Positions 4,733 through 21,309 of a stretch of DNA of 27,499 nucleotides are shown here, piece by piece. Position numbers and translations under genes: made by a program. Below the pieces are notes generated by a model that did no database searches, was not told the DNA's origin, and worked only from the letters and a program-made list of their open reading frames with translations. The DNA is from a virus, in the IMG/VR virus record IMGVR_UViG_3300044712_000654, positions 1-27,499 of that record; one strand, 5' to 3'. Every line of letters begins with the position of its first letter. Position 1 is the first letter of the stretch.

Positions 4733-4753
4733 GAACTTGTAAGACAAAACAGT

Positions 4754-4868
4754 CTGGCGGCTGATAATATGGAGTAAAGACCTATTTTTGAGCCCGTTGG
4801 TGTCGCCCTGTACTCCCAGGATGCCGCCAGCATTGGACGCCAGCGGACTCAAAGACAGGTCTTTTTTT
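4754..4868 (+). ncRNA. Structured leader RNA with terminator-like helix (candidate attenuator)
   Basis: A long imperfect helix pairs 4776-4804 with 4836-4864: AAAGACCT/AGGTCTTT, TTTGAG/CTCAAA, CCG/CGG and TTGGTGTC/GACGCCAG, with one 3x3 loop and one mismatch. It is followed by a U-run (4862-4868). Its loop holds two adjacent small hairpins: CCTG 4807-4810/CAGG 4817-4820 and ATGC 4821-4824/GCAT 4830-4833. Upstream, CTGGCGGC (4754-4761) can pair with GCCGCCAG (4823-4830), or its first six bases with CGCCAG 4838-4843 inside the terminator arm. The helix ends about 20 bases before the next start codon. Confidence 0.6.
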
Positions 4869-4889
4869 ATCTCAATTGGAGTAGGGATT

Positions 4890-5189
4890 ATGGAAAACGT
4901 AGAATTTGAAGGGTTAGTCATCAAACCAAACCGGGGGGTTTATCGGTGCCCTTGGGGATGTGGTAATCCTGGCTTTCCCCCGCCAAAGTGGAAGACTCCG
5001 GGCGGGATATTGGGCCATCTGAAAAAGTGCCCGAATAAGCCTGATAAGATCGAAAAACCGAAGTCAAAACTTTTCGCCTGTGGCAAGACCTGCCCGACCT
5101 GTGGCGATAGTTTAGCCAAGGATGCGCAGGGGCGCTACACCTGCTTTACGTGCGGGCACCGTGTTTTTCTTGATAGCCGGGGCGGGTGA
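4890..5189 (+). CDS. Zinc-finger protein with C2HC and four-Cys ribbon, 99 residues
   Basis: Two metal sites are visible: Cys20-x3-Cys24 ... His43-x3-Cys47 (a C2HC finger around PWGCGNPGFPPPKWK and GILGHLKKC) and Cys68-x2-Cys71 ... Cys85-x2-Cys88 (zinc ribbon, with an extra Cys64). The linker is rich in Lys and Pro. Such proteins usually bind DNA or RNA. Start ATG 4890 has GGAG (4878-4881) upstream. It is the first gene behind the 4705 promoter and its leader hairpin, and lies one base from the VapE-type gene, so a role in replication or its regulation is plausible but inferred from position only. Confidence 0.65.
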   Translation: MENVEFEGLVIKPNRGVYRCPWGCGNPGFPPPKWKTPGGILGHLKKCPNKPDKIEKPKSKLFACGKTCPTCGDSLAKDAQGRYTCFTCGHRVFLDSRGG

Positions 5190-5190
5190 C

Positions 5191-6594
5191 ATGGCTACAT
5201 TCTCAGATGATTTTATTCACGCCATGCACGGCCTGCTTATGGCCGGCCTTTCCCCCGAAGAAATCACTCCGCCAAATGGCAACAGCTCTGAATGGGAGCG
5301 CAAAGTTTTTGAAGATGTAGCACAGGTATCAGACAAAGCGCGGCGGGTAAGTATCTTCAATCAGTACATTGTCAATATCCCCGAGAGACAACAACTCCAG
5401 GAACTTGTATTCAACCCGCCCGCGCGTAAAGGGATCGTGGATTACATCGGCGCGAAAGGGGAGAAATCATTCAAGAGCGCCAATTATGTTGACGTGCTGG
5501 CGCGCCTGGGTTACGAGTTCAGGCAATGCGATTTAGACGACTCAATCGAAGTCAATAAGCAGCCTGTTTCAGACACGGTAGAAGCCGAGATAAGAGCGCG
5601 GTGCAGAGATATAGGATTATCCAAACTTCAATACATGCGCGATGCCTATGTCATGGAAGCGGCAAAAAACCACTATAACCCAATCTTAGATTATCTCAAT
5701 TCGCTAACATGGGACGGCGTAGACTGGATTGAAACGCTGGCCTGTCACCTCGTGGATGAAAATGATTTGATGCCGATCCTGTTACGGCGCTGGCTAATTG
5801 GAGCCGTCGCAAGGAATTTTCAAGAGACACAGAATAGAATGTTAGTTTTGGATGGTAAGCAGGGCATTGGCAAGAGCCGCTTTGTATCCTGGCTGGCTTC
5901 ACCACTACCAAAACATTTTCACGAAGGGGAAATAAGAACGGACGATAAGGATTTCAAGATCCTTTTATCCAACACCTGGATTTGGGAAGTCTCAGAACTC
6001 GGCAGCACAATCAAGCGCTCTGACATCGAAGCGCTAAAAGCATTTTTGACCATGGGGCGGATAAATGTAAGACCGGCATTTATGAAAAACTCCATAGATA
6101 AAAAGGCCATCACCAGTTTTATCGGAACCGTCAATAACATTGGCGGCGTACTCAATGACGCCTCGGGCAGCCGTAGGTTTATGGCTACAACACTGACAAA
6201 CATTGACTTTGACTATGTAAAAATCGATATAAACCAGATTTGGGCGCAAGCCGTAGCGCTATACAAGGCAGGCGAAACCTGGCAAATCGAAGGCGAGGAG
6301 CGCGCGCTCGTGGATCAGGCGAACGATAAGTACGAGACGGAGAATCCGGTCATTGACCTGATAAACAAACGATACGATATTGATGTAACTCGAACCGATT
6401 GGTTTACATCCACGCTGGATTTAGTAGAAATGCTCCATTCAAACGGATGGGGAAGCCACAGTCCAGTGGGCGAGGCCATGATATTAGCCAGCGCTTGCAA
6501 GTCAATCGGACTGCAAAAAGCTTTTATCGGTGACAGCAACAAAACCCGCAAAAAGGGTTATTTAGGTATAAATGCCAAGCTTTTACAAGGCTAG
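5191..6594 (+). CDS. VapE-family (virulence-associated E) P-loop protein, replicative helicase-like
   Basis: The 467-residue protein fits the VapE/PF05272 family. After an N-terminal region (1-165) comes LDYLNSLTWDGVDWIETL (~170-190), Walker A GKQGIGKS (222-229), Walker B-like WIWEVSEL (263-270), and a GSRRF arginine-finger-like motif (326-330). Family members in phages and satellite islands act as superfamily-3-like helicases or primase partners in DNA replication. Start ATG 5191 follows GGGGCGGGTGAC; a longer in-frame reading from 5122 runs inside the upstream gene and is less likely. The stop TAG 6592-6594 lies within the first iteron of the candidate origin, and a primase-polymerase follows, supporting a replication role. 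Confidence 0.8.
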   Translation: MATFSDDFIHAMHGLLMAGLSPEEITPPNGNSSEWERKVFEDVAQVSDKARRVSIFNQYIVNIPERQQLQELVFNPPARKGIVDYIGAKGEKSFKSANYVDVLARLGYEFRQCDLDDSIEVNKQPVSDTVEAEIRARCRDIGLSKLQYMRDAYVMEAAKNHYNPILDYLNSLTWDGVDWIETLACHLVDENDLMPILLRRWLIGAVARNFQETQNRMLVLDGKQGIGKSRFVSWLASPLPKHFHEGEIRTDDKDFKILLSNTWIWEVSELGSTIKRSDIEALKAFLTMGRINVRPAFMKNSIDKKAITSFIGTVNNIGGVLNDASGSRRFMATTLTNIDFDYVKIDINQIWAQAVALYKAGETWQIEGEERALVDQANDKYETENPVIDLINKRYDIDVTRTDWFTSTLDLVEMLHSNGWGSHSPVGEAMILASACKSIGLQKAFIGDSNKTRKKGYLGINAKLLQG

Positions 6595-7880: not shown

Positions 7881-8149
7881 ACCGCATACAATACCACGCC
7901 TATTTACTCACCCCTGCCTGGCACGCAATAGCCGAGCGAGCCAAAGCCAGGGATGGCCACAGGTGCCGGATTTGCAACAGCCCGGATAATCTCGAAGTGC
8001 ATCACAGGACGTATGAACGAGTCGGGCATGAGCGACTTAGCGACCTGACTACGCTATGCGGTGAATGCCATGGGCTATATAGCAATCGCAACGCGGGCGG
8101 CTGGGCGCTGGTGCGCAGTCTGACGGCTGCATTACGCGGAAAGGCGTAA
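7877..8149 (+). CDS. HNH endonuclease-like protein, 90 residues
   Basis: A compact HNH fold is evident: Cys30-x2-Cys33 with RCRICNSPDNLEVHHRTY (His42-His43 catalytic region) and LTTLCGECHGLY (Cys61-x2-Cys64-His65). The start MNRIQYHAYLLTPAW resembles other small phage HNH proteins. These nick or cut DNA and often serve in packaging, recombination or host DNA breakdown; which applies here cannot be told. ATG 7877 overlaps the preceding stop, with AGGA just upstream. It ends the replication block just before the 8157 promoter. Confidence 0.75.
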   Translation: MNRIQYHAYLLTPAWHAIAERAKARDGHRCRICNSPDNLEVHHRTYERVGHERLSDLTTLCGECHGLYSNRNAGGWALVRSLTAALRGKA

Positions 8150-8156
8150 TTGCTAC

Positions 8157-8184
8157 TTGACAAGAGTTATGAAATCCGTATAAT
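8157..8184 (+). promoter_or_regulatory. Full-consensus sigma70 promoter
   Basis: TTGACA (8157-8162) and TATAAT (8179-8184) both match consensus exactly, with a 16-bp spacer. Transcription should start near 8191, inside the 5' arm of the leader helix described next. It begins 8 bases after the HNH stop codon. Confidence 0.85.
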
Positions 8185-8189
8185 TGAAA

Positions 8190-8302
8190 TTGCCAGATCG
8201 TGAACGCGAATTTTTTTCTTTTACAAGCCAAATACTCGCTCTTCTGTTCCGCGCAATTCGCGCACGGTCTGGCAACCGAACAGGAGAGCGAGTTTTTGTT
8301 TT
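8190..8302 (+). ncRNA. Leader RNA with two mutually exclusive long helices; attenuator candidate
   Basis: Helix 1 pairs 8190-8212 with 8255-8275: TTGCCAGA/TCTGGCAA, TCGTG/CACGG (one G-U) and CGCGAATT/AATTCGCG, 21 pairs with a two-base bulge. Helix 2 pairs CTCGCTCTTCTGTTC (8235-8249) with GAACAGGAGAGCGAG (8278-8292), 15 pairs with one G-U, followed by TTTTTGTTTT (8293-8302), so it reads as an intrinsic terminator. The 5' arm of helix 2 lies in the loop of helix 1 and only two bases separate the 3' arms, so both cannot form fully at once. A small GCGC-5-GCGC hairpin (8251-8263) fits inside helix 2's loop. Confidence 0.75.
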
Positions 8303-8316
8303 GAAAAGGAGAAATT

Positions 8317-10608
8317 ATGAATGAGCAATTAGCCAAGTTTATCGAGAGCAAGAAACTACGCGCGCACTTCTATGGCAAGGAAATCTCCCCCGCCGACGTG
8401 CATCCGCTCCTGAAGGATTTCCAGCGCGATGTAGTTGTCTGGGCTGTGCGCAAAGGTCGCGCCGCCGTGTTTCTGGATACCGGCCTAGGAAAGACCTATG
8501 TCCAGCTTGAGTACGCGCGCCTGATGGGTGAAAAGACCTTGATCATCGCCCCGCTATCCGTGGCACGTCAAACTGTCAGGATGTCAGCGAATATCGGTGT
8601 ATTTGTGAAATACGTCCGCCATCAGAGCGAATGCACAGAACAAATCAGCATTACGAATTATGAGATGTTGGATGAGTTTGATCCTGCCGCCTTCGGTGCG
8701 ATCGTGTTGGATGAAAGCAGCATCCTGAAATCCCTGGACGGCAAAACCAAGCAGAAGATTTTGACATCCTTTTCCGAGACATCTTATCGCCTGGCTTGCA
8801 CGGCTACACCAGCCCCGAACGATGAAACCGAGATTGGAAACCATGCCGAGTTCCTGGGCGTGTGTTCGTCGAACGAAATGCTGGCCATGTTCTTTATTCA
8901 TGCCAATAAGGTCAGAGAGATTGACGCGGGAAATGGCGACATTCTGAAAATCAAGCAATCCGGCGACAAGGGCCAGGAGTGGCGCTTGCGTAATTACGCG
9001 CGCGATACCTTTTACGAGTGGATGTCCAGCTGGAGTATTTTGCTACGCAAGCCGAGCGACCTGGGCTATTCCGATGAAGGTTATGACCTGCCGGCGCTGA
9101 ATATCAAGCCGATATTTGTCGATGTGGATTATGTCCCTGATGGGCAGTTGTTTTTCATAGGCCTGTCTGGTATTCAGGAGCGCCATGAAGTCAGACAGGC
9201 GACTTTGGCCGAGCGCGTCAAGGTTGCTGCTGATCTGGTCAATAACTCGGATGAGCAATGGCTCGTGTGGTGCGGCTTGCAATCCGAAGGTGATGCGCTC
9301 GAAAAGGCTATCAATGATGCGGTGCAGGTGCAGGGCTCGGATGCTCTCGAGCACAAGATCAATGCCATTCAGGATTTCCAGGATGGGAAATCGCGCGTTC
9401 TGATCACGAAGCCGAAAATCGCAGGATTTGGGATGAACTTCCAAAACTGCCACAATATGATCTTTGTCGGCCTATCCGATAGCTGGGAAGCCTATTACCA
9501 GTGCATCCGTCGCGAATGGCGCTTTGGGCAGATGTTCCCGGTCAACGTCTTTATTATCCTGTCCGAAGTTGAGCGCGAAATTTACGCGAATGTCATGCAA
9601 AAAGAAGCAGTCGCTAAACGGATGAGCGATGAACTAATCGCTCGTCTGAAAAAACTCGAGAAGGATGAGATTATGAACAAAGTTATCGCAGTCAAAGAGT
9701 ATCAGGAAAAGACCGTAAAGGGGCGCGATTTTACCGCCATGCTCGGGGATAGCTGCCAGCGTCTGGGCGAGATTGAAGAAAACTCAATTGACCTGTCCGT
9801 ATATTCTCCGCCTTTTGCTGATTTATACACCTACTCCGCCAGTGAATTGGATCTCGGGAACTCGAAAGATTGGGATGAGTTCTTTGAGCATTACAAATTC
9901 ATCATTCAGGAAATCCTGCGCGTGACAAAGCCCGGGCGCATGACCTGCGTGCATACTTCGGACATCGCCGCTATGTCGATGAAAGATGGTTACATCGGTA
10001 TGCGTGATTTCCCTGGCGCGGTCATCGAGGCCTATTGCGCCGAAGGCTGGCATTTCTTTGGTCGCGCGATTGTGACCAAGAACCCGCAGGCGCAGGCCAT
10101 CCGCACAAAAGCCCATGGCTTATTATTTGCCACGCTTCGCAAGGACAGCGCCAATAGCCGCCCGGCCATCCTTGACCATATTCTTATCTTCAAGAAGCAG
10201 GGCGAGAACGAAGTACCTATTTTGCCAGTGGACAACGGCGAAATTGATAACGAGCGCTGGATTGATTGGGCTGGCGGGATCTGGACCGGTATCAGTGAGA
10301 GCGATACACTGCAATACACGACCGCACGTGCTGCGGATGACGAGAAGCATATTTGCCCACTACAGTTGGGCACCATTGAGCGCTGTATAAAGTTATACTC
10401 AAACCCCGGCGAAACAATTCTCACGCCATTCATGGGCATTGGTTCGGAAGCTTACCAGGCGCTGCGCTTCAATCGCAAGGCCATCGGGATTGAGTTGAAG
10501 GAGAGCTATTTCAATATCGCCGTGAAAAACTTGCAAGGCGCGGAAAGCACGTACAAGAACGATTTATTCTCGTTCATCCAGACCGAAGAAACCACCGAAG
10601 CGGAATAA
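8317..10608 (+). CDS. SNF2-like helicase fused to N4/N6 DNA methyltransferase
   Basis: The N-terminal ~450 residues are a superfamily 2 translocase: LLKDFQRDVVVWAV (Q-motif-like), Walker A DTGLGKT (54-60), motif II D132-E-S-S, CTATPAPND (motif III), and a C-terminal RecA lobe with KPKIAGFGMNFQNC and a YYQCIRREWRFGQ arginine motif. The last ~310 residues are a methyltransferase with YSPPF (496-500) before LTPFMGIGSEAYQAL near the C terminus, the SPPY-first order of beta-class N4-cytosine/N6-adenine enzymes. It may methylate phage DNA against host restriction while translocating. ATG 8317 has AAAAGGAG upstream. An internal AAGGATGAG plus ATG 9673 could give the methyltransferase alone. Confidence 0.85.
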   Translation: MNEQLAKFIESKKLRAHFYGKEISPADVHPLLKDFQRDVVVWAVRKGRAAVFLDTGLGKTYVQLEYARLMGEKTLIIAPLSVARQTVRMSANIGVFVKYVRHQSECTEQISITNYEMLDEFDPAAFGAIVLDESSILKSLDGKTKQKILTSFSETSYRLACTATPAPNDETEIGNHAEFLGVCSSNEMLAMFFIHANKVREIDAGNGDILKIKQSGDKGQEWRLRNYARDTFYEWMSSWSILLRKPSDLGYSDEGYDLPALNIKPIFVDVDYVPDGQLFFIGLSGIQERHEVRQATLAERVKVAADLVNNSDEQWLVWCGLQSEGDALEKAINDAVQVQGSDALEHKINAIQDFQDGKSRVLITKPKIAGFGMNFQNCHNMIFVGLSDSWEAYYQCIRREWRFGQMFPVNVFIILSEVEREIYANVMQKEAVAKRMSDELIARLKKLEKDEIMNKVIAVKEYQEKTVKGRDFTAMLGDSCQRLGEIEENSIDLSVYSPPFADLYTYSASELDLGNSKDWDEFFEHYKFIIQEILRVTKPGRMTCVHTSDIAAMSMKDGYIGMRDFPGAVIEAYCAEGWHFFGRAIVTKNPQAQAIRTKAHGLLFATLRKDSANSRPAILDHILIFKKQGENEVPILPVDNGEIDNERWIDWAGGIWTGISESDTLQYTTARAADDEKHICPLQLGTIERCIKLYSNPGETILTPFMGIGSEAYQALRFNRKAIGIELKESYFNIAVKNLQGAESTYKNDLFSFIQTEETTEAE

Positions 10609-11076: not shown

Positions 11077-11505
11077 ATGAAACTCGTAAATCGCTTTCTC
11101 TCTCTGGTCATTCTTGCAACTCTGTTCGTTCTCGCTCTTTCGGCCTGCGGAGTAGCCGTACCGCCTGCGCAACCGGTTAACGGCTTTGCCGCGTCACTTG
11201 TGGCGATGCCGCCCGAAGGAAGTCAACTGATCGTCGTGCTGGTCACGGCTGGCGTTACCTGGCTGCTTTTGCAACTTTCAACCGCGCTCAAAATCGACCT
11301 GGGGGGATATGTTCAGCAAATCGTAGCGATTGTCTCTCCTATTCTGATTACATTGGCCGAAAGCGCGCTGGGCATGATCCCGCCCGCATTTGATAATATC
11401 GTTTTGACAGTCATCCACCTTTTGGTTTTGATAGCTGGCAGCCTGGGCGTAGTCCTGGTCGCAAATAAGACCAAGGCCAAGCAAGTACACGCCTTGCTTA
11501 AGTAG
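11077..11505 (+). CDS. Membrane lipoprotein with several transmembrane segments; holin-like candidate
   Basis: The N terminus is a lipoprotein signal: MKLVNRFLSLVILATLFVLA followed by the lipobox L21-S-A-C24. After a short Pro-rich stretch come three hydrophobic segments: about 48-66 (LIVVLVTAGVTWLLLQL), 76-98 (VQQIVAIVSPILITLAES) and 105-128 (IVLTVIHLLVLIAGSLGVVL), then a Lys-rich tail. Size and topology resemble phage holins, but a lipidated multi-pass protein is unusual; the signal could instead be an uncleaved first membrane span. ATG 11077 has GGAAGGG upstream. First gene after the 11023 box. Confidence 0.6.
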   Translation: MKLVNRFLSLVILATLFVLALSACGVAVPPAQPVNGFAASLVAMPPEGSQLIVVLVTAGVTWLLLQLSTALKIDLGGYVQQIVAIVSPILITLAESALGMIPPAFDNIVLTVIHLLVLIAGSLGVVLVANKTKAKQVHALLK

Positions 11506-20646: not shown

Positions 20647-20742
20647 GTTTTCAATCTCGTTATCCGCGAAACGTAAAAGGCGCGGGCGGTTGGGACGTAA
20701 CCCGTAAAAATCGTAAGACGCGATTAGTTTGAAAGGACAGAT

Positions 20743-21309
20743 ATGAAACGCGAAGATTTGACCAAGATCGATTTCACCAAGCCAGACGAAGCCATTGACG
20801 CAATTATGACTCTGTATGGTAAGAGCGTCACAAAACTTCAAACCGATTTGCAGACGGCACAGACCGAGGCGCAGACAGCCAAGGACCAACTTACTGAAGC
20901 TAATAAGCAAATCGGCGCGTTCAAGGGCATGAAGCCCGAGGACGTTGACCGGACTATTGGCGAATGGAAAACCAAAGCCGAGCAAGCACAGAAAGACGCC
21001 GCTGACCAGATCGCCGCTCTGAAGTTTGATGTTGCCCTGAAGGATGCTCTGAAAGAGTACAAGGTCAAAGACCCTGCCGACGTTATCCCCCACTTAAAGC
21101 GCGATGCGTTGAAATTGGGCGATGATGGCAAGTTTATCGGCCTGAAAGAGCAAGTCGATCCACTCAAAACCGCAAAAGATTATCTGTTTGTACCCGACAA
21201 GGAAGACCCCAAGATTGTTCTTGGGGGAAATAACAAATCCGTCTTATCTGACGCGGTAGTCAATGCGGCGCGTACCGCTGCCGGGCTACCCGTTGCACAA
21301 GGAAAATAA
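20743..21309 (+). CDS. Capsid scaffolding protein, GP20-like
   Basis: 188 residues, highly charged and helical, with a central coiled coil (LQTDLQTAQTEAQTAKDQLT, then KAEQAQKDAADQIAALKFDV) and a C-terminal part PADVIPHLKRDALKLGDDGK. This is the layout of phage minor structural protein GP20 / scaffold, always found just before the major capsid gene, which is the case here. It would guide prohead assembly and then leave. ATG 20743 has AAAGGACAG upstream. Confidence 0.8.
   Translation: MKREDLTKIDFTKPDEAIDAIMTLYGKSVTKLQTDLQTAQTEAQTAKDQLTEANKQIGAFKGMKPEDVDRTIGEWKTKAEQAQKDAADQIAALKFDVALKDALKEYKVKDPADVIPHLKRDALKLGDDGKFIGLKEQVDPLKTAKDYLFVPDKEDPKIVLGGNNKSVLSDAVVNAARTAAGLPVAQGK

Follow-up and report, generated by a model that had tools for sequence, protein, structure and literature searches.

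In the leaders of classic attenuators, the antiterminator and the terminator share a strand. Premature termination in an untranslated leader is also known from replication genes: the replication initiator of the plasmid pIP501 is under antisense-induced attenuation (PMC4981023), and in phage P4 RNA complementarity (CI RNA with seqA and seqC) in the leader upstream of the replication genes leads to premature termination of transcription (PMC4825925). The HMP-PP (thiS) riboswitch is described as having an aptamer that is embedded in a terminator (PMC6478431).

Here we report on a leader RNA with two interleaved helices in a 27.5-kb fragment filed as a virus in IMG/VR (IMGVR_UViG_3300044712_000654), the whole of which is hereafter called the window. 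This leader, which begins at position 8190, is one case of a recurring phage leader architecture that has apparently gone undescribed; our search of the open literature for a phage leader of this topology yielded no description.

Structure of the 8190 Leader

The window contains VapE-like and Prim-Pol replication genes, genes for an HNH protein and a helicase-methyltransferase, a terminase and structural genes, while its left edge (positions 1-219), which is the edge of the contig, holds the end of a pentapeptide-repeat (A-x-L-x-x) protein. The leader fills the gap between the end of the HNH gene at 8149 and the start, at 8317, of the gene that it presumably controls (8317-10608). This gene encodes a 763-amino-acid SNF2-like helicase fused to an N6/N4 DNA methyltransferase (Pfam matches: PF01555, 5.8e-19; PF00271, 2.1e-8; PF00176, 1.3e-5) and is located, like all parts of the leader, on the plus strand. 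Where the HNH gene ends, immediately upstream of the promoter, a perfect hairpin without a T-run is present at 8133-8151 (arms ATTACGC and GCGTAAT, loop GGAAAG). Elsewhere in the window, a match to the Rfam GP20-b RNA (RF03003) at 20658-20715 (plus strand) scored 36.3 bits, the gathering score being 36.2, and an ORF at 20743 is directly downstream.

A previous, sequence-only reading of this locus had proposed a perfect-consensus promoter, a 21-bp helix made by the 5' end of the transcript and a 15-bp helix ending in a U-tract, with the 5' arm of the second helix in the loop of the first and two bases between the 3' arms, all of which we confirmed. The sigma-70-type promoter (8157-8184) consists of TTGACA (8157-8162) and TATAAT (8179-8184), both perfect hexamers, separated by a spacer of 16 bp, the optimum being 17 bp. 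Transcription is predicted to start at approximately 8190-8192, which places the first helix at the very 5' end of the RNA. The 5' strand of this helix (8190-8212), here termed the antiterminator (AT), comprises A (8190-8202, TTGCCAGATCGTG) and E5 (8205-8212, CGCGAATT) with an AA bulge between them, and its 3' strand (8255-8275) comprises E3 (8255-8262) and A' (8263-8275); together they form 21 bp, with one G-U pair and the 2-nt bulge, at a duplex energy of -31.6 kcal/mol. The loop of the AT helix contains B' (8234-8249), the 5' arm of the terminator, the 3' arm of which, B (8278-8292), follows A' after 2 nt. The terminator helix (8235-8249 with 8278-8292) has 15 bp, or 16 bp if the pair 8234-8293 is counted, with one G-U pair and an energy of -28.1 kcal/mol, and is directly followed by the U-tract (8293-8302, TTTTTGTTTT) and then by the ribosome-binding site (8304-8311, AAAAGGAG). 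A GC-rich hairpin with a U-tract (8234-8302), i.e., an intrinsic terminator, is thus located between the promoter and the gene, and the order of elements is A-B'-A'-B-U-tract. In the minimum free energy fold, a small hairpin termed Q (8250-8262, CGCG(CAATT)CGCG), which contains E3 and is possible only in the terminator fold, is also formed.

The interleaved structure is real and well beyond chance. Its joint interleaved-stem score, from a scan that needs only two interleaved stems and a T-run, is 70.6. Dinucleotide shuffling of the local segment (with the U-tract kept) never brought the score to 60 in 30,000 trials, and the top score in 462 shuffles of the whole window was 56.8. The z-score of the RNA fold is -3.8, with 1 out of 200 shuffles equally good. 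Previously, the G-U pairs in both helices had been taken as a hint of selection for structure; we regard these as weak evidence, the real evidence being compensatory change in relatives. For the 8190 leader itself no close relative was found and, therefore, its own pairs are beyond the reach of covariation.

The claim that the two helices are incompatible holds for the full 21-bp and 15-bp pair, which cannot coexist since the junctions of 2 nt and 5 nt (8250-8254) are too short. However, a partial AT helix of 13 bp together with the terminator helix, bridged by 13 nt, is not barred by distance alone. Such coexistence is unlikely during transcription, since the polymerase-bound 3' end of the RNA would have to wind through a closed loop.

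Recurrence of the Topology in Uncultured Phages

The topology scan is independent of sequence; its thresholds were picked by eye against shuffles, and some of the matches with scores of 40-50 are likely due to chance. An RNAduplex-based scan proved too permissive and was discarded. At approximately 25 places in uncultured phages, the order A-B'-A'-B-U-tract, built from unrelated sequences, was found immediately between a promoter and the gene that follows. When the filters were extended to a -10 box just before A and a gene that starts just past the U-tract, 18 matches scored at least 50, compared to 1 in three shuffles. In the 2.59 Mb scanned, 10 out of 11 matches scoring at least 60 were on the gene-sense strand and four shuffles gave none; the strongest matches in 478 kb of loci of the helicase-methyltransferase type were all gene-sense. 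A DNA-level operator, i.e., a long inverted repeat, was ruled out on the grounds that the arms interleave and have tens of nucleotides between them and that strong matches occur almost only in the gene-sense orientation.

The genes that follow interleaved leaders are mainly those of replication initiators, primases, helicase-methyltransferases and small Cys-rich proteins. In the strong elements the gene starts 7-37 nt past the U-tract, in some cases with the ribosome-binding site beside or inside arm B. Several leaders can be present on a single contig (three each in L006 and in the G008 contig, two each in L209 and in the window). Helicase-methyltransferase genes are preceded by an interleaved leader at four other loci (L002, L005, L006, and L209); at the first three of these, where the proteins are 58-59% identical, the promoter and the A-B'-A'-B-U-tract order are present in unrelated sequence. 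At Bacteroidota-like loci, L002 included, we read a TAnnTTTG-type box in place of the -10 box. The switch had previously been tied to the modification enzyme, an association that was not upheld: most relatives of the leader precede replication genes, and upstream of 31 homologous enzymes a leader is mostly lacking because the genes are packed in operons. No convincing interleaved leader was found in eight records of isolate or named phages that carry the enzyme gene (S-CBS3, XX1924, FCV-1, FCL-2, PA8, EBPR podovirus 2, Emma, and a Helicobacter prophage), and a search of isolate phages for DNA homologues of the 8190 leader or of an element of the R2 family (see below) gave none.

Two further observations were made on these contigs. 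A phage contig in a genome from the order Burkholderiales (L398), which also carries an R2 element and a helicase-methyltransferase, contains a strong interleaved element (11266-11359, score 78) with no gene start seen immediately downstream. At five loci (L031, L033, L034, L069, and L076), approximately 90 nt upstream of a gene for a 294-amino-acid protein, the flanks of A can pair (e.g., CTTTGC..GCAAAG), placing A in a loop that shares positions with the -10 box; transcripts started upstream and those started locally might, as a result, take on different folds.

The RNA Family R2 and a Second Leader in the Window

Some of the leaders could be aligned over their full length and were grouped as R2 (L018, L057, L235, L237, L039, L362 (twice), L314, and L296). 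From 5' to 3', R2 consists of a hairpin H, the loop of which (UUGGYC) is A, E5, B', hairpin Q, A' (GRCCAA), hairpin P, the loop of which is frequently of the GNRA type, B and the U-tract; the loop of hairpin Q (E3) is complementary to E5. Over helices H, A, B, Q, and P jointly, 98.2% of the alignment cells are paired, with double-sided changes in 27 of 38 pairs; none of 500 shuffles was as good, and structures slid along the alignment paired 35-45%. The E helix, which was outside the search criteria, paired above non-self pairings in an automatic self-versus-swapped test on 18 elements (P=0.0012); this is the fair test, as the hand-picked E arms (98% self vs. 44% non-self) were chosen by eye. 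Judged by these sequence comparisons, R2 is a true RNA family in which both helices covary. In the 8190 leader, A and E are merged into one long stem, and it has the plan, not the sequence, in common with R2.

Rfam covariance models gave no match to these elements at the gathering score, only sub-threshold matches. A covariance model built on R2 (R1) found L023, which is outside the training set (E=4e-9), and, among 300 genomes from the order of Parasutterella (Burkholderiales), one new member (2.8e-12), in which the H, A, and E arms are changed in sequence and yet pair. For phages that carry an R2 element, a host in the Burkholderiales is suggested by the G354 contig. No R2 was found with this model among 274 genomes from the class that includes Halomonas (Gammaproteobacteria), nor did it match the 8190 leader. 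In five members (L057, L235, L237, L039, and L362), an ATG after a G-rich stretch inside B' opens short M-x-S-G-(G/W) frames, which could be either a chance result of the common B' sequence or a leader peptide. The helix order of R2 is that of the HDV ribozyme; on reading, no joining segment able to carry the catalytic C was seen and an HDV-like ribozyme was rejected.

The model R1 also gave a match (E=0.013 in 0.5 Mb) at 4745-4870 of the window, where a second interleaved leader, a putative distant R2 member with a scan score of 53.8, is located on the plus strand. Its promoter consists of TTGAAG (4705) and TATAAT (4727), and its stems are formed by A (4754-4761) with A' (4823-4830) and by B' (4777-4792) with B (4848-4863). 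The automatic test assigned E to 4771-4776 and 4811-4816 (GGAGTA/TACTCC), the latter in the loop of a hairpin at 4807-4820. Downstream (4890-6594, plus strand) are genes for a 99-amino-acid Cys-rich protein and then a VapE-like replication protein.

Folding Order and the Proposed Switch

The RNA was folded as a growing chain with 12 nt held by the polymerase, using energies that ignore pseudoknots and real kinetics. When B of the 8190 leader begins to emerge, the AT fold is at -31.2 kcal/mol and the terminator fold (T) at -14.6 kcal/mol; T finally reaches -40.5 kcal/mol and is computed to overtake AT only once the polymerase has come to the end of the U-tract (near 8302-8304). By computation, a competing earlier helix is thus present in this leader. 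Before B emerges, AT was at least as stable as T in all 20 elements folded and T was the more stable at the end in 18; the cross-over was located between 9 nt before and 12 nt past the end of the U-tract.

We consider, with a probability of roughly 0.6, that the 8190 leader is a co-transcriptional transcription attenuator. By sequence and comparison, the RNA starts at or beside strand A, and A (with E5) can pair with A' (with E3) to give an antiterminator stem whose loop encloses the terminator arm B'; B and the U-tract are transcribed last, right before the ribosome-binding site of the gene. The antiterminator would form first and be kinetically trapped, since the two helices share no strand and the terminator could not invade it by branch migration, and its loop would be closed while the polymerase still holds the 3' end of the RNA. 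The terminator would win if the first ~25 nt were kept from, or released from, pairing or if the polymerase dwelt at the U-tract, for which RNA, a protein or the elongation rate are candidate input signals. The energetics suggest that the regulated event is probably termination and that read-through into the gene is the default. The termination/antitermination switch proposed in the sequence-only reading thus stays the best interpretation, as the topology recurs and R2 covaries, from which we infer regulation, with the amendment that the default is predicted to be read-through.

Alternative Explanations

A promoter, a length of ~110 nt, a terminator and a stable terminal fold are also what a mere small-RNA gene with its own terminator, followed by a gene by chance, would have. 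However, genes start at short distances past the U-tract of the strong elements, some with a ribosome-binding site beside or inside B (see above), and a plain terminator does not need interleaving, which makes this explanation improbable. We also doubt strongly that a ribosome on a short leader ORF picks the fold: a Shine-Dalgarno sequence with an ATG/GTG ORF of at least 8 codons is found in 9 of 23 leaders, compared to 4.6 ± 2.3 in shuffles, and in L005 and L006 the ORFs have 34-36 codons and end just beyond the U-tract, but most leaders, both of those in the window included, lack such an ORF and the excess comes mostly from related R2 members with a common B'. An opposite-strand antisense RNA that binds A, in the style of the countertranscript attenuators of pIP501 and pT181, has a precedent in the pIP501 initiator; yet antisense promoter scores inside 23 elements (7.80) equal those of shuffled sequences (7.77), while the sense promoters upstream of the elements stand out (9.2 vs. 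7.4), and we regard this mechanism as very improbable.

It has also to be considered that the terminated leader of ~110 nt acts in trans, its exposed A' (with the A loop) pairing with A of newly made leaders, preventing their antiterminator from forming and causing termination, so that each operon would limit itself or exclude relatives, as the P4 CI RNA does. The promoters are strong and look constitutive, A of R2 is presented in the hairpin loop UUGGYC, complementary to A', and, in the manner of P4 (PMC4825925), the leaders have replication genes downstream. Furthermore, one phage carries several elements with different arms, and the A arms of L034 and L070 have 20% identity, compared to 72-82% in the flanks. 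However, intramolecular A:A' pairing would compete, the hypervariability of the arms rests on few comparisons, and no integrase (PF00589, 18 records) or resolvase (PF00239, 12 records) was found in these records, which are fragments; this would speak against lysogenic immunity. Altogether, action in trans seems rather unlikely to us. The wider idea that such leaders are a phage-specific switch class, defined by topology, in which leaders recognise their own kind in trans (A loop with A') as orthogonal, self-limiting circuits for early and replication operons, with hypervariable arms that set specificity between competing phages, is speculative and likewise unlikely.

Significance and Comparison with Known Systems

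RNA-only control of phage replication genes has so far been known from a handful of cases. The single folding plan described here, which sequence searches do not see, spans promoters from the sigma-70 type to an apparent Bacteroidota type. If co-transcriptional attenuation operates as inferred, the leader would be a compact and portable switch in which the order of folding decides the outcome, topology-based searches could reveal regulators missed by homology searches of the Rfam type, and family R2 would offer a testable RNA.

The conserved elements of R2 (hairpins Q and P and strand A') are located within the terminator, in its apical region, as is the aptamer of the HMP-PP (thiS) riboswitch; unlike the latter, however, R2 has few conserved unpaired bases and the 8190 leader no evident ones, and other genes are concerned. 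Replication genes with leaders in which transcription ends early are also known from plasmids (repR of pIP501 and pAM-beta-1 and repC of pT181), whereas the present leaders are from phages and no antisense promoter was found in them. With the P4 immunity system (CI RNA, seqA and seqC) they have in common leader RNA complementarity before replication genes; they differ in that everything is contained in one compact leader of ~110 nt, with no integrase seen, no Rfam match and a trans action that is putative. With antiterminator/terminator attenuators, the 8190 leader shares the promoter, the competing upstream helix, the intrinsic terminator and the gene downstream. In contrast to the classic attenuators, its antiterminator and terminator have no strand in common. 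It is the interleaving that makes them mutually exclusive: the antiterminator loop encloses one arm of the terminator, and strand A occupies the 5' end.
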